Assembly: GCF_017565745.1 (NCBI RefSeq) | Contig: NZ_JAGDYM010000003.1 | Span: forward strand, 62,001 to 126,000 | Direction: 5' to 3' | From: Leucobacter weissii | GTDB lineage: Bacteria; Actinomycetota; Actinomycetes; Actinomycetales; Microbacteriaceae | Length of the DNA: 64,000 bases | In this document: one piece after another, positions 5,825 through 46,297 of the stretch | How positions within the stretch are numbered: position 1 is the stretch's first letter | How the letters are laid out: every line of letters begins with the position of its first letter | The notes under the pieces: model-generated | Databases searched by the model: none | Told to the model about the DNA's origin: nothing | What the model saw: the letters and a program-made list of their open reading frames with translations, nothing else | Made by a program: the position numbers and the translations under genes

Positions 5825-7114
5825 GTGAGAATCGCAGTCGTCGCCACCGGCAAGATCGGGCTCCCGCTCGCCGTCCAGTACGCCTCGATGGGCCACGAGG
5901 TCGTCGGGGTCGATGTGAACGAGGCGCTGGTCGCCGCCATCAACCGCGGCGAGGAGCCGTTCCCGGGCGAGGCGCAGCTCGCGGAGAAGCTGGCCGAGCT
6001 GGTGCCGAGCGGTGCGCTGCGGGCCACCACCGACTACGCCGACGCGATCCCGGGCGCCGACGCCGTGGTCCTGGTGGTGCCGCTGCTCGTGGACGAGGAG
6101 ACGTGGCAGCCCGACTTCGGGTGGATGGACGCCGCGACGCGCTCGCTCGCCGAGCACCTGACGCCGGGCACCCTCGTCTCCTACGAGACCACGCTGCCCG
6201 TCGGCACCACGCGCGGGCGGTGGAAGCCGCTGATCGAGGAGGTCTCGGGCCTCGTGGAGGGCGACGACTTCCACCTCGTGTTCTCGCCGGAGCGCGTGCT
6301 CACGGGCCGGGTGTTCGCCGATCTGAGGAAGTACCCGAAACTCGTCGGCGGGCTGAACGAGGCCGGGACGACGCGGGCGATCGAGTTCTACGAGGCCGTG
6401 CTGAGCTTCGACGACCGCGACGACCTGCCGCGGCCGAACGGGGTCTGGGACATGGGTACCGCCGAGGCCGCCGAGATGGCGAAGCTCGCGGAGACCACCT
6501 ACCGCGATGTGAACATCGGCCTCGCCAACCAGTTCGCGCGCTACGCCGACACCGCCGGAATCGACGTGTACCGGGTGATCGAGGCGTGCAACTCGCAGCC
6601 GTTCAGCCACATCCACCGGCCGGGGATCGCGGTGGGCGGGCACTGCATCCCGGTCTACCCCAGGCTCTACCTCTCGACCGACCCCGACGCCGACATCGTG
6701 CGGACCGCGCGCAACGTCAATGCTTCGATGCCGGCCTACGTGGTGGATCGCGTCGAGCAGACGATCGGGGATCTCGCGGGGCTGCGGGTCGTCGTGCTCG
6801 GCGCGGCGTATCGCGGCGGCGTCAAGGAGACCGCGGTCTCGGGCGTGTTTCCCACCGTGGAGGAGCTGACGCGGCGGGGTGCGACGGTGACGGTGCACGA
6901 TCCGCTGTTCGGCGATGACGAACTGGCGGGGCACGGCTTCGCGGCGCATCGGATCGGCGACCCGGTCGACATCGCGATCCTGCAGGCCGATCACGCCGGG
7001 TACCGCGAACTCGGGCCGGCCGACTTCCCCGGCATCCGGCTCTTCGCGGACGGCCGCAACTTCACCGATCCGGCCGCCTGGCGCGGGGTGCCCCGCATCG
7101 TCATCGGCGCCTGA
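5825..7114 (+). CDS. UDP-N-acetylhexosamine 6-dehydrogenase, WecC/VipA-like
   Basis: 429 residues, starting with the NAD-binding strand-loop MRIAVVATGKIGLPLA (GxGxxG in altered form: ATGKIG). Family blocks are present in order: YETTLPVGTT, FSPERVLTG, the helix EMAKLAETTYRDVNIGLANQ, and the active-site cysteine in GIAVGGHCIPVYP. These define the two-step NAD-dependent oxidation of a UDP-hexosamine to its uronic acid. The FSPERVLTGRVFADL form is closer to ManNAc/GlcNAc dehydrogenases than to UDP-glucose dehydrogenase. It would supply an aminouronic acid for the polymer. It is one of three dehydrogenases within 12 kb and the most divergent of them. Confidence 0.85.
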   Translation: MRIAVVATGKIGLPLAVQYASMGHEVVGVDVNEALVAAINRGEEPFPGEAQLAEKLAELVPSGALRATTDYADAIPGADAVVLVVPLLVDEETWQPDFGWMDAATRSLAEHLTPGTLVSYETTLPVGTTRGRWKPLIEEVSGLVEGDDFHLVFSPERVLTGRVFADLRKYPKLVGGLNEAGTTRAIEFYEAVLSFDDRDDLPRPNGVWDMGTAEAAEMAKLAETTYRDVNIGLANQFARYADTAGIDVYRVIEACNSQPFSHIHRPGIAVGGHCIPVYPRLYLSTDPDADIVRTARNVNASMPAYVVDRVEQTIGDLAGLRVVVLGAAYRGGVKETAVSGVFPTVEELTRRGATVTVHDPLFGDDELAGHGFAAHRIGDPVDIAILQADHAGYRELGPADFPGIRLFADGRNFTDPAAWRGVPRIVIGA

Positions 7115-7177
7115 CGCCCCGGCGGACCGTGTCCGCCGGTTCTCGAGGGCGCGGCGTGCCCGACCCGCAGCGGCCGA

Positions 7178-7576
7178 CTACCGCGCGGGCGTCACGATGA
7201 GGCGCTTCTCCGTGCCGCGCTCCACGATGTTCAGCCGCTCGTCGATTCGAGCGACCGTCAGCTTGAGGCCCTCCAAGTTCTTGCGCAGCTCGTCGACGTC
7301 AGCGCGGAGCCTGTCGACGTCGGCGCGGAGCCTGTCGACTTCGGCGCGGAGCCTGGTGACTTCGGCGCGGAGACTGTCGACTTCGGCGCGGAGACTGTCG
7401 ACTTCGGCGCGGAGACTGGCGACTTCGGTGCGGAGGCTACCGACATCGGCCTCGATCTTGTCGAACCGGGCGTTGAACTCGGCGCGCAGGCTGTTGTGGG
7501 ACGACCGCGTGAAGCCCCAGATGGCGAGAATGGTCACCACCACGCCCAGCACCGTCACCCAGCTCTCCACGCTCAT
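7178..7576 (-). CDS. Small membrane-anchored coiled-coil protein with heptad repeats
   Basis: 132 residues. One N-terminal transmembrane segment (residues 6-21, WVTVLGVVVTILAIWGF) is followed by about 100 residues of heptad coiled coil in which the unit SLRAEVD/RLRADVD repeats seven times, then a short basic tail (RGTEKRLIVTPAR). The repeats are encoded by near-identical 21-bp DNA units. No enzymatic motif. It is similar in plan to the protein at 60308-60850, although that one is built mostly of 11-residue repeats. Function unknown. It lies convergent to the dehydrogenase gene, and its upstream gap (7577-7849) holds nothing else recognisable except the promoter of the next gene. Confidence 0.7.
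   Translation of the reverse strand: MSVESWVTVLGVVVTILAIWGFTRSSHNSLRAEFNARFDKIEADVGSLRTEVASLRAEVDSLRAEVDSLRAEVTRLRAEVDRLRADVDRLRADVDELRKNLEGLKLTVARIDERLNIVERGTEKRLIVTPAR
7302..7448 (-). repeat. 21-bp tandem repeat encoding the coiled coil
   Basis: Seven contiguous 21-bp units read on the + strand as gcgcggagcctgtcgacttc plus g. Units 7365-7385 and 7386-7406 are identical; the others differ by 1-5 bases. Each encodes one heptad. Confidence 0.85.
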
Positions 7577-7837
7577 GCCTCGATTCTTTCAGGAAGTCCG
7601 TCCGATTGCGAGCAACGCTACCGCCGCTGGAGCGCGCGAGCACACGGTTCCGCGGGATCTGTGGATAGCTTGCGCGGAACCCTCTATCGTGCCGTCCGGT
7701 GAGGGGCGACCGCTCCTCGGCGGGAGGGGCGTCGCTTCGCGACGGGAGCGGCGGCGCATCGCCGCGAGGACATCAGGGCGTCGGCGCGGCTCCGCCCCGC
7801 GCCGCAGCCGCGCCGGGGACTCCCACCGGCGTTCGGA

Positions 7838-7843
7838 TAAGAT
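7838..7843 (+). promoter_or_regulatory. -10 box (TAAGAT) of leaderless start at 7850
   Basis: TAAGAT, 6-nt spacer, GTG start; no ribosome site. Confidence 0.7.
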
Positions 7844-7849
7844 GTCCGG

Positions 7850-8731
7850 GTGACTCAACACCCCGCGCTCAGCGACCCTGAGTATGCCACCCCGGGCACC
7901 AGTCGCGGCCTCATCAGTGTGTTCCAGCACCGGTACCTCCTGTCGCTGCTGCTCAAGAAGGGCATCGCGACCAGGTACTACGGCTCCGCCCTCGGCTGGG
8001 CCTGGTCCTACATCCGGCCCCTGGCCCAGTTCCTCATGTACTACGTGGTCATCGGCATCCTGCTCGGGCTCGAACGCTCGGTCCAGCCGTTCCCGATCTA
8101 CCTGTTCTCGGGCATCATCGTCATCAACCTGTTCAGCGAGACCTTCCGCAGCACGACCGACGCGGTCCTCAACAACAAGTCGCTGATCCGCAAGATCTAT
8201 CTGCCGCGCGAGCTGTTCCCGGTGGCCGCCGCGGGCGGGGCGATCATCCACTTCCTGCCGCAGGCCGCGGTGCTGCTCATCGTCTGCATCATCGTCGGCT
8301 GGACCATCTCCTGGGTGCAGATCCTCGCCTTCCTGGCCCTCGTGGTCATCGTCGTCGTGTTCGCTCTCGGCCTGGGGCTCTTCTTCGGGGCCTTCAACGT
8401 CGCCTACCGCGATTCCAAGAACATCGTGGACATCATCCTCATGTTCTCCACCTGGGTCTCGCCGGTGCTCTACACCTCGTACATGGTGAAGGAGCGCGCG
8501 GCCGGGATCGGGATGGACTGGGTCTACCAGCTCTACATGATCAACCCGGTCACGACCGCGGTGGAGCTCTCCCACCTGGTGTTCTGGAGGCCGGTCTCGC
8601 AGGACGCCCCGCCCGCGCCCGATCTGCTGCTCACCTACAGCTTCACGGGCATCGGGTTCGCGCTCGTGGCGCTGGTGCTCGGCCAGCTCATGTTCCGAAA
8701 GATGGAGGGGCGCTTTGCCCAAGACCTCTGA
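7850..8731 (+). CDS. tagG: Polysaccharide/teichoic-acid ABC transporter permease (TagG/Wzm family)
   Basis: 293 residues with six predicted membrane helices (for example FLMYYVVIGILLGL, FLPQAAVLLIVCIIVGW, ILAFLALVVIVVVFALGLGLFFG, and the last at FALVALVLGQLMF). The N-terminal region contains the amphipathic stretch LLLKKGIATRYYGSALGWAWSYIRP typical of ABC-2 glycan export permeases that push a finished, lipid-linked polymer across the membrane. The ATPase gene starts inside its 3' end, so the two are translationally coupled. Together with that partner it forms a second export route in this locus, distinct from the fused exporter at 2623-4404. The start is the GTG placed by a leaderless promoter. 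Confidence 0.88.
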   Translation: MTQHPALSDPEYATPGTSRGLISVFQHRYLLSLLLKKGIATRYYGSALGWAWSYIRPLAQFLMYYVVIGILLGLERSVQPFPIYLFSGIIVINLFSETFRSTTDAVLNNKSLIRKIYLPRELFPVAAAGGAIIHFLPQAAVLLIVCIIVGWTISWVQILAFLALVVIVVVFALGLGLFFGAFNVAYRDSKNIVDIILMFSTWVSPVLYTSYMVKERAAGIGMDWVYQLYMINPVTTAVELSHLVFWRPVSQDAPPAPDLLLTYSFTGIGFALVALVLGQLMFRKMEGRFAQDL

Positions 8732-42031: not shown

Positions 42032-42994
42032 TCAGATCCGATCGCCGACGCTGCGGCGGAGCTTCGCGCGCCGGGCGCGAATCGACCCGACAGTGCGGTG
42101 GAGGAGCCGTGCGAGCTCGAGATCCGTGGTCTCGGCCACCAGCACCAGGCGATCCTCGGCCATCGTCCACGGCGCGTTCCGGCGAGTCGGAGGGTTGCCC
42201 TGCGACTCGCGGACGCGCTGCTGCTGCGCCCGCTCCCTCGCGCAGACCCCGCACCGCGAACCGCCGCGGCCGTCCGAGACCAGATTCTCCGCACGCTGCG
42301 GGTGCCCGGCGCGGCACACTCCGCCGCGGAGCGGCGCCCCCGCCTCCTCTGCGGCTTCGGCAGCGGCCGATGACGGCGGCGCCGGGAGCTGCTGCCCGGC
42401 CGGATGCCGGCGCAGCCACGTGCGATAGGCGGACCTGTTGACGCCCGTCGCTCTGGCGAGCATGCCGAGCGGCACCCGATACCGTTCGTCGATCTCGGCC
42501 AACAGGCCGCGGAGTTCCGCGATCGCCTCGGGCGCCGCGCCCGGGAGCGCGCCTCCCTCCGGCGACACGAGATACCACAGCTCCACCACTCGATTCAGCA
42601 GCGCTACCGGCACGCGCAGCACCGTGTCCTGCATACGGAACCCGCCGACCCTGCGCCTCCGATACCGCGATACCGGCCGCTGCCTCTCGGCGGCGACCGC
42701 GCCCGCCGGACGGCCCTGACCCGGGCCCGCGGTGCGATCGTTCCCGTGAGCCGGCGATCGGGACTCCCGCCGCCGCTTCGCGCGGAGCGTGCCGCCGAGT
42801 CCGGCCTCTTTCAGCCGCAGCAATCGCCCGGTCTGAAGCCGGCCCTGACCCGCGAGCATGGACTGATGCGCCAGCCACGTTCCCAGTCGACGCTCGGTCG
42901 CGTTCCGCGGCTGCACATCATCCGGCCGGCGGCCGTGCGCCGCCAGCCAGGCCACACAGGCCGAGAACAGCTCTTCCCACGCCTCGGAGTCCAC
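42032..42994 (-). CDS. Helicase-associated-domain protein with zinc-ribbon and Myb-like ends (putative DNA-binding)
   Basis: 320 residues, GTG start. Residues 4-65 match the helicase-associated (HA) domain pattern: WEELFSACVAWLAAHGRRP, ERRLGTWLAHQ, RLQTGRLLRLKEAGL. There is no DEAD/DEAH ATPase, so this is not a helicase. About 120-200 is a region shared with the neighbour at 43110-43922 (VLRVPVALLNRVVELW, RGLLAEIDERYRVPLGMLARATGVNRSAYRTWL), which looks like a helix-turn-helix. About 230-258 has CRAGH...RCGVC, a zinc-ribbon pattern seen in actinobacterial DNA-binding proteins. The end (PWTMAEDRLVLVAETTDLELARLLHRTVGSIRARRAKLRR) resembles a Myb/SANT-like helix set. Probably a DNA-binding effector. 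Its promoter carries the 27-bp element also found before the exported peptide gene. Confidence 0.65.
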   Translation of the reverse strand: MDSEAWEELFSACVAWLAAHGRRPDDVQPRNATERRLGTWLAHQSMLAGQGRLQTGRLLRLKEAGLGGTLRAKRRRESRSPAHGNDRTAGPGQGRPAGAVAAERQRPVSRYRRRRVGGFRMQDTVLRVPVALLNRVVELWYLVSPEGGALPGAAPEAIAELRGLLAEIDERYRVPLGMLARATGVNRSAYRTWLRRHPAGQQLPAPPSSAAAEAAEEAGAPLRGGVCRAGHPQRAENLVSDGRGGSRCGVCARERAQQQRVRESQGNPPTRRNAPWTMAEDRLVLVAETTDLELARLLHRTVGSIRARRAKLRRSVGDRI

Positions 42995-43063: not shown

Positions 43064-43090
43064 GTATACCCCACGTTCGTGTGGTTTTTC
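43064..43090 (-). promoter_or_regulatory. Shared 27-bp promoter element, copy 1
   Basis: Identical at 24 of 27 positions to 44897-44923, with 18 consecutive identical bases (CCCACGTTCGTGTGGTTT on the + strand). It contains the inverted repeat CCAC...GTGG. On the minus strand it ends in TATAC, which could begin a -10 box, 70 nt before the GTG of the 42032-42994 gene. Confidence 0.75.
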
Positions 43091-43109: not shown

Positions 43110-43922
43110 TCAGGGCCGCGCCGCGGTTCTCAAGACGTCGCGATCCAGGCCGGTGACCCGCGCGAGCCCGGTCAGAGTGACTCCACCGCGCTCGGCGAGT
43201 TCCACCAGCAGCCCCCGGAACTCCGCCGTCCACACGTCTGACCGGGTTGCGGCAGACGTGTGATGCCCCACCTCTGCGAGAGCATCGTGCAGCGCCACGA
43301 GTCGGGTCAGCTTCTCGACCGGGAGCTGCAGGATCGGATCGCGCGAGCGGCACCCGTTGATCCGTCGTTTGCGCTGCCGCGCCGCCTGGTGCCGCTGTTC
43401 AGCGAGGCGAAGCCTCGGCGCCAGCCCGTAATCCCGTTCCGGACACCGGTCCTTGTCGGGGCGGTACTCGGCGCAGTAGGTTCCTGCTCCCGAGCTGCTG
43501 GTCTGCAGCATCGCACCGATCTCGGAGAGCCGCCATCCGGCGGCATGGAGATGATGCGCCGCCGAGCGCACATCCCACACATCCGCTGCCGCCCTGATGT
43601 CTTGCGCGGCGGACTCCGGAATGCGCGCCCACTTCGCGGCCCGGTCGTTGATGATCGGCGGACGCCACCGGCGCCTCGGCGGCGTCCGCCAGCGACGCCG
43701 GCCGGCCTGCCAGAGCCCGGCCTCCCGGAGCCTCAGGAATCGGCCCGTGGGCAGCTCTCCCACCTCGGCAAGCGCCACCTGGTGTTCGAGCCATACCCCC
43801 AGCCGCTGCTCTTCGGGGCTTTGCGCCTCGCGCGGAGAGGGGTGACTGTCATGAGTCCTCATCCAGGCGAGGCACGCCGCGAACCTGTGCTCCCAGTCGT
43901 CGCTCACCAGCGTCACCGTCAT
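43110..43922 (-). CDS. Helicase-associated-domain protein, paralogue of 42032-42994
   Basis: 270 residues from an ATG 30 bp after the response-regulator stop. Residues 10-70 are an HA domain: WEHRFAACLAWMRTHDSHP, EEQRLGVWLEHQVALAEVGELPTGRFLRLREAGLW. The C-terminal region (ILQLPVEKLTRLVALHDAL, FRGLLVELAERGGVTLTGLARVTGLDRDVLRTAARP) aligns with the middle of the paralogue. The central part (CAEYRPDKDRCPERDYGLAPRLRLAEQRH) has two cysteines but no clear zinc site. It lacks the zinc-ribbon and Myb-like end of the paralogue and has no ATPase motif. Likely nucleic-acid binding, co-transcribed with the peptide and response-regulator genes. Confidence 0.62.
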   Translation of the reverse strand: MTVTLVSDDWEHRFAACLAWMRTHDSHPSPREAQSPEEQRLGVWLEHQVALAEVGELPTGRFLRLREAGLWQAGRRRWRTPPRRRWRPPIINDRAAKWARIPESAAQDIRAAADVWDVRSAAHHLHAAGWRLSEIGAMLQTSSSGAGTYCAEYRPDKDRCPERDYGLAPRLRLAEQRHQAARQRKRRINGCRSRDPILQLPVEKLTRLVALHDALAEVGHHTSAATRSDVWTAEFRGLLVELAERGGVTLTGLARVTGLDRDVLRTAARP

Positions 43923-43952: not shown

Positions 43953-44666
43953 TCAGGAGCTGATGAAACGGTATTCGACGGCCTTGACGACGAGTTGCGC
44001 GAGGTTGGCGGCGTCGAGCTTCTCGCGAAGGTGCCGAGCGTGGTCTTTGACCGTGGCAGGACTGACGCTGCGGCTCTCGGCGATCTCGTCGTAGCTGCGG
44101 CCCTTGCAGATCAACTGCAGGGTTTCGAGTTCAACCGCCGTGAGCCGAGGGACAGCGGTCTGAACCGAAGCGTCCTGGTTGCCCGAGATGAACACGTCGG
44201 CGGCGAGCCCGCCGAGGAGCGCCGGATCGTCGCCGGCCGCCGCGATGCGGATCATCTCGATCAGCGCATATGAGGAGGCGTCCTTGTCGACGGCGGCCAG
44301 CGCCCCCGCCTCGAGAACCCGCACCAGCCCAGGCCCCGGAGCGATCGTCGTGAGCGCGATCACCCGCGCGTCGGGATCGTCTCGGAGGATCGCGGCGGTG
44401 GCCTCGATGCCCGAGATGCCCGGTGACATGTTGATGTCCATGAGCACCACGTCCGGGCGGAATGCCCGGTATGCGCGTATCGCCTCCTCGCCGCTGCTCA
44501 CGGGCTCCAGCAGTTCGAGCCCGGGTGTGCCCGAGAGCACCGCGGTGAGGCCGCGGATCGTCCAGCGATCGTCGTCGACCATCAGCAGACGGATGGGATC
44601 GCTTCGGCCCCGGTCGGCCTGGCGCGAGACGGCGGGCACGGGAGGCGAAACAGCGGGCACGGTCAC
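43953..44666 (-). CDS. NarL/LuxR-family response regulator
   Basis: 237 residues. The GTG start at 44666 shares GTGA with the stop of the upstream peptide gene. Receiver domain at about 25-145: RLLMVDDDRWTIRGL, phosphoacceptor Asp77 in VVLMDINMSPGISGIEAT, ALTTI, and the lysine in AAVDKDASSYALIEMI. The LuxR-type helix-turn-helix is at about 170-235 (LTAVELETLQLICKGRSYDEIAESRSVSPATVKDHARHLREKL). The cognate kinase is almost certainly the HisKA_3-type protein at 44922-46109, with the peptide gene between them. It ends AQLVVKAVEYRFISS, the segment also found in the relic at 31.2 kb. Its target may be the 27-bp element (inference). Confidence 0.88.
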   Translation of the reverse strand: MTVPAVSPPVPAVSRQADRGRSDPIRLLMVDDDRWTIRGLTAVLSGTPGLELLEPVSSGEEAIRAYRAFRPDVVLMDINMSPGISGIEATAAILRDDPDARVIALTTIAPGPGLVRVLEAGALAAVDKDASSYALIEMIRIAAAGDDPALLGGLAADVFISGNQDASVQTAVPRLTAVELETLQLICKGRSYDEIAESRSVSPATVKDHARHLREKLDAANLAQLVVKAVEYRFISS

Positions 44667-44866
44667 AGGCAGTACTTCCGGTACAGAGCGGGGTTGGTCT
44701 CTCTCCACAGCGCGCACTGCGCCACGGTGACCAGGGGCACGACTTCGGGGTCTGGCACGGTGGTGATCGAGGAGCTCCCACTTGCCACCGGAGCCGGGGC
44801 GGCGACCGGGGCGTTGAGCGGGAGAATGAGGGCGAGGGCGGCGAGGATGCTGACGAGAGTGCTCAT
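44663..44866 (-). CDS. Small exported peptide with C-terminal Cys-loop (signal-peptide candidate)
   Basis: 67 residues. A hydrophobic N-terminus (TLVSILAALALILPL) followed by small residues and A-x-A sites (NAPVAAPAPVASG) suggests export. The mature end is VTVAQCALWRETNPALYRKYCL, with Cys51 and Cys66 bracketing a 14-residue loop one residue from the C-terminus. The stop overlaps the response-regulator start by 4 bp, so the two are translationally coupled. The shared 27-bp promoter element lies 31 nt upstream. No homologue is recognised. I infer either a secreted autoinducing or signalling peptide sensed by the adjacent kinase, or an extracytoplasmic accessory protein of it. A tiny protein could also be a leader without function, but overlap and promoter argue that it is real. 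Confidence 0.6.
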   Translation of the reverse strand: MSTLVSILAALALILPLNAPVAAPAPVASGSSSITTVPDPEVVPLVTVAQCALWRETNPALYRKYCL

Positions 44867-44896
44867 ACCTCAATCACATAGCGCGCACCTCACCTT

Positions 44897-44923
44897 GCAT
44901 ATCCCACGTTCGTGTGGTTTCTC
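44897..44923 (-). promoter_or_regulatory. Shared 27-bp promoter element, copy 2
   Basis: Second copy of the element at 43064-43090, overlapping the kinase stop codon. On the minus strand it ends in TATGC at the position where copy 1 has TATAC, 31 nt before the peptide start codon. It would control peptide, response regulator and the first HA-domain gene. Confidence 0.75.
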
Positions 44924-46109
44924 AGTCCGGGATCGGGAAGGACAGCCGGACGTGCACCACGCCGTTCTCGGCGACCATGCGGCAGGTGCCGCCGCGGGTC
45001 TCGGCCCGATAGCCGAGGCTTCTCGGGGTGAGCCCGACGTCGGCGGTTCCGGAGTTCGTGGTTTCGAAGCTGAGCGTCGCCTGCCCATTCTCGGCGCTGC
45101 GGGTGACGTTCAGCTCGCAGGGGCCGTCGCCGGCGTGCTTGACCATGTTGGTGATCAGTTCGCGCAGCACGAAGCGCACATCCTCCATCATCTCCGGCGG
45201 AACGGCGTCGGGCAGATCCCCGACCCGCACGCGCACCCGGGTGCCGCCGGTCTCCGCCGCCGCCGCGAGGCTGTTTGCGATGCGGGCCACCTCGGTTTCG
45301 AAGCGGACCTCCGAACGCGGCTGTTCCTCATCGTGCTCGGCGAGGCGCAGCAGCAGTTGACGGAGCTGCTGCTGCGCGTCGCGGTTCACCAGCGCGAGTT
45401 CGCCGAGCATCCGAGTGCGCTCCTGGTCGTCGGGCTCGTGGGCCGCAGCGCGGATGATGCCCGACTGCAGAGCGAGGCTGTGCTCGACCGTGTCGTGGGT
45501 GTCGTTCATCAGCCCGAAACGGATGCGCTGCACCTCGCGCTCATGCTCGCGCGCCGCCTCGATCTTCCGGGCGGTCTCCCGGTTGACGCGCCACTCCAGA
45601 TACGCGCCCGTGAGCGCGAGCGCCGACCCGGTACTCCAGGTGTACAACAGCAACGAGAAGGGTGTTGCGACAAGGATCTCCAGCCGATGCTCGAGTGCGA
45701 CCACGAGGAACGCCGCACCCGTCAACACGAGCGACAATCGCCAGCGCAACTTCGCGAGCAGCACGGCGGCCGCAAACATGATCGGCGCCAAGAACGGGTT
45801 GATGTAATCGGGGTACACCGCGATGAACACGATGAACAGCCCGGTGGCGAGCAACCCAGAGATCCCAGCCGCGAAAGGGGTGAGGAGGATCACTCCGACC
45901 GCGAGCGGGTAGATGAACAGGAGATACCAGACCTCGTCGGTCTCTGCGCGAAGCGGAGAGATCCCGGAGAACGCATAGATCAGAGCGAACACCCGGATCG
46001 GCGGATCGACCAGGCGCGGGCCGATGACCACTCTCACCAGACGGTCGAGGCGGGAGCTGCCGGACGAGGCGAGTGCGGCGCTGATGCGGTGGAAGACACG
46101 CTGAGGCAA
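44922..46109 (-). CDS. Sensor histidine kinase, NarX/DesK-like (HisKA_3)
   Basis: 395 residues. The N-terminal 185 residues contain five or six membrane helices (VFALIYAFSGI, VWYLLFIYPLAVGVILLTPFAAGISGLLATGLFIVFIA, FLAPIMFAAAVLLA, LVLTGAAFLVVA, ATPFSLLLYTWSTGSALALTGAYL) with almost no extracytoplasmic loop. Then comes the dimerisation/phosphoacceptor helix with HDTVEHSLA (first His phosphorylated) and a HATPase domain (VLRELITNMVKHAGDG N-box; the G-box LGYRAETRGGTC is weak). A sensor embedded in the membrane fits a hydrophobic, envelope or small-peptide signal. The TTG start is supported by TAGGAC 6 nt upstream; a GTG 4 codons in is the alternative. Confidence 0.85.
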   Translation of the reverse strand: MPQRVFHRISAALASSGSSRLDRLVRVVIGPRLVDPPIRVFALIYAFSGISPLRAETDEVWYLLFIYPLAVGVILLTPFAAGISGLLATGLFIVFIAVYPDYINPFLAPIMFAAAVLLAKLRWRLSLVLTGAAFLVVALEHRLEILVATPFSLLLYTWSTGSALALTGAYLEWRVNRETARKIEAAREHEREVQRIRFGLMNDTHDTVEHSLALQSGIIRAAAHEPDDQERTRMLGELALVNRDAQQQLRQLLLRLAEHDEEQPRSEVRFETEVARIANSLAAAAETGGTRVRVRVGDLPDAVPPEMMEDVRFVLRELITNMVKHAGDGPCELNVTRSAENGQATLSFETTNSGTADVGLTPRSLGYRAETRGGTCRMVAENGVVHVRLSFPIPD

Positions 46110-46277: not shown

Positions 46278-46297
46278 ACTCGAACCGCGGTTTGAGT
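46278..46297. promoter_or_regulatory. 20-bp palindrome, operator candidate
   Basis: ACTCGAACCGCGGTTTGAGT: ACTC-G-AACCG pairs with CGGTT-T-GAGT, with one mismatch on each side. It lies 170 bp before the kinase gene and 225 bp before the acyltransferase gene, in a position where a repressor or activator of either could bind. Confidence 0.4.

Follow-up and report, generated by a model that had tools for sequence, protein, structure and literature searches.

A 64,000-nucleotide (nt) stretch of the Leucobacter weissii draft genome (contig NZ_JAGDYM010000003.1, positions 62,001 to 126,000; hereafter the window) carries on its minus strand a gene for a 67-residue Cys-loop peptide between those of a membrane sensor histidine kinase and a NarL/LuxR-type response regulator. 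The DesK-like kinase (44922..46109) exhibits six predicted transmembrane (TM) helices with short outer loops, a HisKA_3-like H-box (H205) and an N-box. The peptide encoded at 44663..44866 ends in C51-x2-W54-x11-C66-L67; C51 and C66, 16 residues inclusive, are its only cysteines and are followed by Leu67. The regulator (43953..44666) has Pfam matches to Response_reg and GerE, and its GTG start shares a 4-bp GTGA (44663..44666) with the peptide stop, an overlap that likely couples the translation of the two genes. By eye, codons R63-K64 of the peptide resemble the Shine-Dalgarno sequence of the regulator. The gap between the kinase stop and the peptide start contains an imperfect palindrome, ACCACACGAACGTGGG (44899..44923), which is in register with the palindrome of homologous loci and is a candidate regulator operator. 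The original prediction, made from the letters of the window, had described the gene order, the 4-bp overlap and the two cysteines bracketing the last 16 residues, all of which are borne out, and had proposed a possible peptide-signalling system. What stands of that proposal is a peptide-linked two-component system; the release of the peptide and its role as a signal we infer only.

The peptide family and its distribution

Sequence comparison indicates that the small gene belongs to a genuine, conserved family, which is now definable. Nineteen intact peptide genes, encoding 62-101 residues and each flanked by the kinase and regulator genes, were collected: one in the window, one in each of four further genomes of the genus (G030, G007, G008 and G053), one each in G172 and G103 (which have the common code g51), two in Enteractinococcus, five in genus g93 (family f6) and five in genus g94 (family f7). 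The count omits the frameshifted peptide gene of Auritidibacter (L088); loci at contig ends (L140, L151), partial kinase matches (L159-L161, with one chance motif match in L161), a kinase remnant (L129) and second copies of loci were dropped beforehand. The open reading frame (ORF) is more than a product of chance: 18 other loci have it in the same place, and its C-terminal pattern is invariant. Searches detected the peptide gene solely beside this kinase type. At 19 loci a small exported-type protein, a multi-TM kinase and a regulator form a conserved unit. Overlap with the regulator gene is seen at all of these loci, as RTGA in 17 and TAATG in two. The family, gene order, overlap and conservation, like the palindrome and its recurrence, can be read directly in the sequences.

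Each member begins with a hydrophobic, signal-like segment, continues through a variable linker and has a C-terminus of the form C-x2-W-x3-[ND]-x3-[YF]-x3-C. The Cys, Trp and Cys residues are present with constant spacing in 19/19 members, the second Cys lying 15 residues past the first; position 8 of the C-terminus is Asn or Asp and position 12 is Tyr or Phe in all 19, and position 5 is Arg, Lys or Phe. The second Cys is penultimate in 18 members and antepenultimate in the remaining one (G1197). Conservation of both cysteines in homologues had been set beforehand as a test, and every member retains them. In five close pairs the proportion of nonsynonymous differences (pN) is 0.00-0.05 over the last 17 codons versus 0.17-0.34 over the remainder of the gene, and since the former is far below the latter the C-terminus is the most constrained region. 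Two distant pairs with the window retain the pattern positions and have altered residues between them. The linker varies in length and sequence, yet its pN is lower than its proportion of synonymous differences (pS). Codons 13-15 of the C-terminal block (CGG-AAG, AAG-GAG etc.) lie at the right distance to serve as the regulator's Shine-Dalgarno sequence; this may account for part of the conservation at positions 13-15, but not for that of Cys, Trp, Asn/Asp and Tyr/Phe. The layout would be that of a pre-pro-peptide with a functional C-terminus.

Several searches bounded the family. Among 54 genomes of the genus, full-length kinase relatives occur in five others (G007, G008, G030, G051 and G053), four of which have a similarly ending small ORF in the gap from kinase to regulator. 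When genome_contigs, which comprises one genome for each of 84,980 species, was scanned for exact matches to C-x2-W-x7-YRKYCL-stop, eight places were located, namely five in Leucobacter, two in Enteractinococcus helveticum and one in Auritidibacter ignavus, and all eight have a kinase (or its remnant) on one side and a regulator on the other. A kinase profile added further loci from 396 genomes of the order; counting the window, 10 of the loci L132-L158 (27 in all) have the peptide, and its C-terminus is more variable there. The C-terminal profile A5 matched 5 of 57 genomes of g93 at an expectation (E) value <= 1.1e-8, plus one weak match at 0.023, and 5 of 38 genomes of g94 at E <= 8.6e-6. 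It matched 10 of 391 genomes of the order, including the window, at E <= 1.1e-8; three further matches, at E >= 0.0018, were partial. In 198 genomes of the phylum the window alone matched, besides two partial matches at E >= 0.0019. These searches, which were limited to 2,000 genomes, share genomes and their counts overlap. Profile A5 tells members from noise sufficiently well for further ones to be found.

Other queries were less discriminating. Profile A1 gave 16 matches in 398 genomes of the family: the window, two real members (G172 and G103) and 13 that fall short of the model's C-terminal end. The narrow profile A3, run class-wide on 394 genomes, had matches with E up to 0.1 in 29, the window alone being below 0.001. 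As a single sequence, the 67-residue protein had matches up to E=1 in 48 of the 54 genus genomes, and the true members (E 5.9e-6 to 0.51) were told from noise solely by kinase adjacency. Single-sequence scans returned nothing from genome_contigs with this protein, from plasmids and phages with the peptide or from plasmids with the kinase. The original prediction did not recognise the peptide family; the window peptide indeed has no match in Pfam, NCBIfam, PADLOC or PHROGs, a best PDB sequence match of E 0.51 and no PDB fold match, but a family can be defined from the 19 loci. No account of the system was seen among the PubMed Central papers listed, including the available portions of PMC8895600 and PMC3466318; subscription papers lie mostly outside this literature and a prior description is possible.

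Export signal, predicted fold and kinase

The small protein is probably exported, as judged from its sequence. A simple hydropathy rule finds a hydrophobic stretch within the first 40 residues in 19/19 members, and reading by eye finds Lys or Arg near the start in 16 and a plausibly placed A-x-A in 13. The N-terminus of the window peptide is among the least typical, without Lys/Arg near the start and without a clean A-x-A past the hydrophobic stretch. By this heuristic, a hydrophobic, signal-like N-terminus of the kind named in the original prediction is present throughout the family; the window's own copy is atypical. AlphaFold, supplied with eight sequences, models the C-terminal part of the window peptide as a helical hairpin with helices at residues 48-57 and 59-65. 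The predicted local distance difference test (pLDDT) values form blocks of 96 and 92 over residues 51-67 and are low elsewhere, with a mean of 65.6. The helix-turn-helix, with the turn at Asn58, would place C51 near C66.

The membrane kinase had been assigned to HisKA_3. It is HisKA_3-like with six predicted TM helices, but the match lies below the Pfam cut-off (E=0.004 for the window); 8/8 aligned members match, the best at 5.4e-6. Among solved structures, DosS, DosT and DesK are closest in sequence and DesK is closest in the fold of the cytoplasmic part, and the kinase appears to be DesK-like, with a HisKA_3 H-box and a DesK-like catalytic and ATP-binding (CA) domain. The AlphaFold model (mean pLDDT 79.0) exhibits helices at 35-50, 60-76, 81-98, 107-119, 123-142 and from 151 into a long helix. 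If the N-terminus is inside, as assumed, the outer loops would be at ~50-60, 98-107 and 142-151, about 10 residues each, in agreement with the earlier description of a kinase with almost no extracytoplasmic loops. A P-x3-N-P motif is present in the second outer loop of 13 of 18 aligned peptide-bearing kinases, preceded by Tyr or Phe in 11, and is absent from L150, L155, L156, L157 and L158; the alignment omits L152, whose kinase N-terminus is missing. The 13 peptide-less g93 kinases have YP-x3-N-M at this place, and a decayed kinase in G051 keeps P-x3-N-P. Separately, the kinase family keeps the H-box and N-box, and a DxGxG G1 box was not recognisable by eye in the C-termini compared; in the 8-row kinase alignment Asn352, R368, G373 and G374 are invariant in the expected G1 region. 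ATP binding by these kinases may be unusual.

The candidate operator and neighbouring genes

In many homologues the gap between the end of the kinase gene and the start of the peptide gene contains a palindrome, which resembles CATCCCTC-N4-GAGGGATG in roughly half of the lineages and has another sequence in the rest. The best palindrome was located in each of 14 representative loci; its 5-bp right arm stops 35-37 nt short of the peptide start in 11 and does not conform in three. The pooled palindrome score at this fixed position is 74, compared with a mean of 36.2 (standard deviation 4.2, maximum 48) in 500 dinucleotide shuffles, none of which reach 74, and with 39, 43 and 40 in three windows further upstream. 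In a per-locus test over 120 nt most single loci are not significant, and significance is reached by the pooled fixed-position test alone. The palindrome centre lies at about -43 from the peptide start codon, where a LuxR-type box would sit were transcription to begin at the first codon or close to it. The palindrome is a candidate operator of the regulator.

The same candidate operator sequence is found before the kinase in L033-L035 and behind the regulator in L090, L133 and L134. A DNA site is more probable than an RNA hairpin, because the sequence recurs before other genes. A strict rule, defined partly from peptide-upstream sites and not from the others, finds 14 sites in ~295 kb (17 regions), of which 13 lie no more than 2 kb from a peptide gene; the background of a looser rule is high, at 12 operator-like sequences in 94,293 control bases. 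Most of 25 genome-wide sites are inside genes, and a site common to G007 and G008, TCCGCGAACGGGGGATGC, was dropped on finding it inside a permease-like gene. In addition, a near-perfect palindrome, ACTCGAACCGCGGTTTGAGT, is located at 46278-46297 of the window, ~170 bp upstream of the kinase start, in the gap between the kinase and a SucT-like acyltransferase gene.

A second copy of the 25-nt window element, 23/25 identical, lies at 43066..43090 on the minus strand, and the 22-nt core of the element occurs at only these two places in the 3.37-Mb draft genome at <=3 mismatches. This copy is upstream of a gene for a 320-residue protein (42032..42994, minus strand) with a sub-threshold match to the helicase-associated domain HA (PF03457), a possible output gene; residues 219-283 of the protein also match an HNH-endonuclease PHROG. 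The gene next downstream of the regulator (43110..43922, minus strand) encodes a 270-residue protein with another sub-threshold HA (PF03457) match, whose link to the module is putative. These two HA-domain-like proteins are the output candidates of the window.

Candidate output genes differ between lineages. In G986, the site that follows the regulator is succeeded by genes for a secreted-looking protein of 142 residues, an ABC ATPase and a membrane protein. About 1 kb behind the regulator, Enteractinococcus has genes for a secreted-looking protein and for a small, PLDc_N-like membrane protein; a relative of the former (34% over 109 residues) lies upstream of the kinase in G871, and the second Enteractinococcus locus has a sub-threshold match to prokaryotic phospholipase A2 upstream of its kinase. 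Homologous two-TM-like proteins of 77-78 residues, 46% identical over 74 residues, are encoded behind the regulator in Enteractinococcus and G871 (L127:11592-11825 and L179:10987-11217), the G871 gene being located ~110 nt behind an operator-like site. In three Leucobacter genomes (G007, G008 and G030; L120-L122) the module is flanked by a conserved lipoprotein/ABC operon and a homoserine acetyltransferase-like gene, both named by eye. This operon, although it has operator-like sequences nearby, was not adopted as an output, for L. zeae (L124) has the block without the module. Orthologous-looking membrane-protein genes next to an oligoribonuclease-like gene (by eye) in G030 (L105) and G007 (L117) have operator-like sites upstream and are possible unlinked targets.

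Proposed mechanism, alternatives and known systems

The comparison of loci supports a peptide-linked two-component system. The best reading is that this system also senses the exported peptide as its ligand; that the peptide acts as an autoinducer is in our estimate about an even chance. In such a system the small protein would be exported, and its conserved C-terminal 17 residues would form a helical hairpin held shut by a disulfide between C51 and C66. The hairpin, either free or cut from the variable pro-region, would act from outside through the three short outer loops of the six-TM kinase, which would pass phosphate to the LuxR-type regulator. The regulator would bind the palindrome ~36 nt before the peptide start codon and raise peptide and regulator together (autoinduction). 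It would also switch neighbouring genes, in some relatives probably those of secreted proteins. Among these steps we infer export, release, the disulfide, kinase binding, operator function and the sign of regulation.

A number of observations weigh against peptide sensing. Fourteen kinase-regulator pairs of the same family lack the peptide, 13 in g93 and one a Leucobacter paralogue; loss of the ORF from otherwise conserved loci had been named beforehand as a refuting condition. In the 13-member g93 clade, a kinase with a TM region and a C-terminal extension runs straight into the regulator; a motif search of all 13 loci was negative, no other small gene was seen in the three forward frames read in nine of them, and the profile finds no peptide elsewhere in the 13 genomes. 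Because these loci keep kinase and regulator without it, the peptide is dispensable to the kinase family, and the g93 absences tell most strongly against the simplest form of a pheromone reading. In G899 (L183) the kinase matches in two pieces around a transposase-like ORF (6460-7872, by eye), with the peptide gene intact and the regulator frame open. The evidence for export consists of hydropathy and a motif heuristic, and no conserved processing enzyme or exporter was noticed in the neighbour lists, of which no profile search was made. In the five close pairs pS is 0.00-0.32 over the last 17 codons and 0.46-0.55 over the remainder, so that part of the constraint may be on nucleotides; between the window and two distant relatives C-terminal pN (0.27 and 0.31) is about equal to pS (0.30 and 0.32). 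YRKYCL is identical in Leucobacter and Enteractinococcus; pheromones often diversify. Finally, the window's own palindrome is weak (score 3), and strict-rule sites are absent from 7 of 16 peptide-bearing regions.

Decay of the module gives a further view of the link between peptide and kinase. G051 (L036) has no peptide and, within 1.5 kb, no regulator; its H-box His is replaced by Gln, its N-box is altered, and from its sequence the kinase looks like a decaying copy. In Auritidibacter ignavus (L088/L129) a frameshift interrupts the peptide gene, the kinase is reduced to its 3' end beside a transposase-like gene (by eye), and the regulator frame is open. The joint decay of peptide and kinase in these two genomes counts for peptide sensing. 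A second kinase in G030 has a regulator, lacks most of the TM sensor and has no peptide, and L153/L154 have neither peptide nor regulator within 1.5 kb. On a kinase tree of 36 rows the peptide label changes four times, well-supported branches force four changes, and 0/500 label shuffles were as low, a comparison in which near-copies favour low values; long branches make deep placement unsure. The presence pattern is compatible with ancestral presence and later losses. G871 also has a truncated second kinase N-terminus on the opposite strand (L179:10304-10837), near two operator-like sites, which is a possible remnant of a tandem module.

Set against the even chance given to a released signal, a cell-bound modulator is rather unlikely. 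As such an MgrB-like surface accessory, the exported peptide would stay on its producer and set kinase activity, by negative feedback or by redox sensing through C51-C66, with no cell-cell communication. The two invariant outward cysteines, the candidate autoregulation site and the coupling to the regulator gene would all suit this role, and a C-terminus constant across lineages is no less in keeping with a binding partner than with a diversifying signal. In the accessible portion of PMC10576120, MgrB is a precedent with two essential periplasmic cysteines, PhoPQ-dependent expression and negative feedback. TM-anchored MgrB differs, however, from a peptide with a plausible A-x-A in 13 of 19 members and, in all, a variable linker that resembles a pro-region.

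The peptide might also be a bacteriocin-like cationic disulfide hairpin with its own regulation, the kinase sensing the peptide or its damage. The C-terminal net charge of +2 to +7 in 16/19 members, and secreted-looking proteins with small membrane or ABC genes near the module in some relatives, are consistent with an antimicrobial, but the charge is 0 or +1 in 3/19, the gene lies between kinase and regulator and overlaps the latter, and no immunity-like gene common to all loci was noticed in the neighbour lists; we regard this explanation as improbable. Least credible, to the point of being very improbable, is a translational leader whose ORF would mainly bring ribosomes to the regulator start and whose C-terminus would be conserved for RNA reasons. 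Such a leader would account for the regulator overlap in 19/19 loci, the Shine-Dalgarno-like codons at positions 13-15 and the low C-terminal pS of close pairs. Nevertheless, the C, W, N/D, Y/F and C positions survive codon changes (such as TGC/TGT, TAC/TAT and AAC/AAT), and the N-terminus stays hydrophobic where the sequence is otherwise dissimilar.

Peptide signalling via membrane kinases is known mainly from Firmicutes. The peptide-sensing reading, if true, would give actinobacteria a circuit made up of a candidate ligand of 17 residues with one disulfide, a receptor, a regulator and a DNA site. The module is compact and recognisable in Leucobacter, Enteractinococcus and relatives, and is cheap to probe with synthetic peptide. 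The results suggest an undescribed way for several actinobacterial genera to sense a peptide, most likely their own. More tentatively, and on balance doubtfully, Actinomycetota may possess peptide-pheromone systems of their own, unrelated to agr, com and ComX, in which the C-terminal part of an exported pro-peptide, a disulfide-stapled helical hairpin, would be read by DesK-type kinases, would be autoinduced via a LuxR-type box at ~-43 and, in several genera, would drive secreted antagonism or lipid-attacking proteins.

Among the closest known systems, Agr and ComCDE similarly place an exported-type small protein beside a six-TM kinase. The AgrD peptide forms a thiolactone; here, unlike in AgrD, a Cys is penultimate and a second Cys lies 15 residues earlier. 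No AgrB-like protease/exporter or double-Gly exporter was noticed in the neighbour lists, of which no profile search was made. The receptor of the competence-stimulating peptide, ComD, has six TM segments and three outer loops, the same layout as here, according to the available part of PMC4873836. In contrast, the pairing of a DesK-like/HisKA_3-like kinase with a Response_reg/GerE regulator differs from that of HATPase_c_5 with LytTR, which PMC8895600 describes in part for the Agr type. ComQXPA of Bacillus has in common with the present locus a HisKA_3-type multi-TM kinase, a NarL-type GerE regulator, a tight locus with gene overlaps and a Trp in the peptide, whereas here the peptide gene lies between kinase and regulator, has two invariant Cys and belongs to another phylum. 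The neighbours of the peptide gene are the kinase and regulator genes, and no ComQ isoprenyl transferase is next to it; the rest of the genomes was not searched for one. The available part of a ComQXPA census reports none outside Firmicutes (PMC4008528). Since defining features of each are lacking, the system is not filed under Agr or ComQXPA.

DesK-DesR offers the closest solved fold for the cytoplasmic part of the kinase. DesK is a multi-TM sensor with standard G boxes, and we know of no exported peptide for DesK-DesR. MgrB, which is TM-anchored, is encoded apart from phoPQ; here, the gene is part of the operon, and many members have an N-terminus that looks cleavable. The window peptide has no Pfam or NCBIfam match at E 0.001 that would indicate MgrB-family homology, and no direct comparison with MgrB was made. 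The likeness to MgrB-PhoQ, as far as the available portion of PMC10576120 describes it, comprises a small exported-type protein with two conserved cysteines, a sensor-kinase circuit and candidate feedback.

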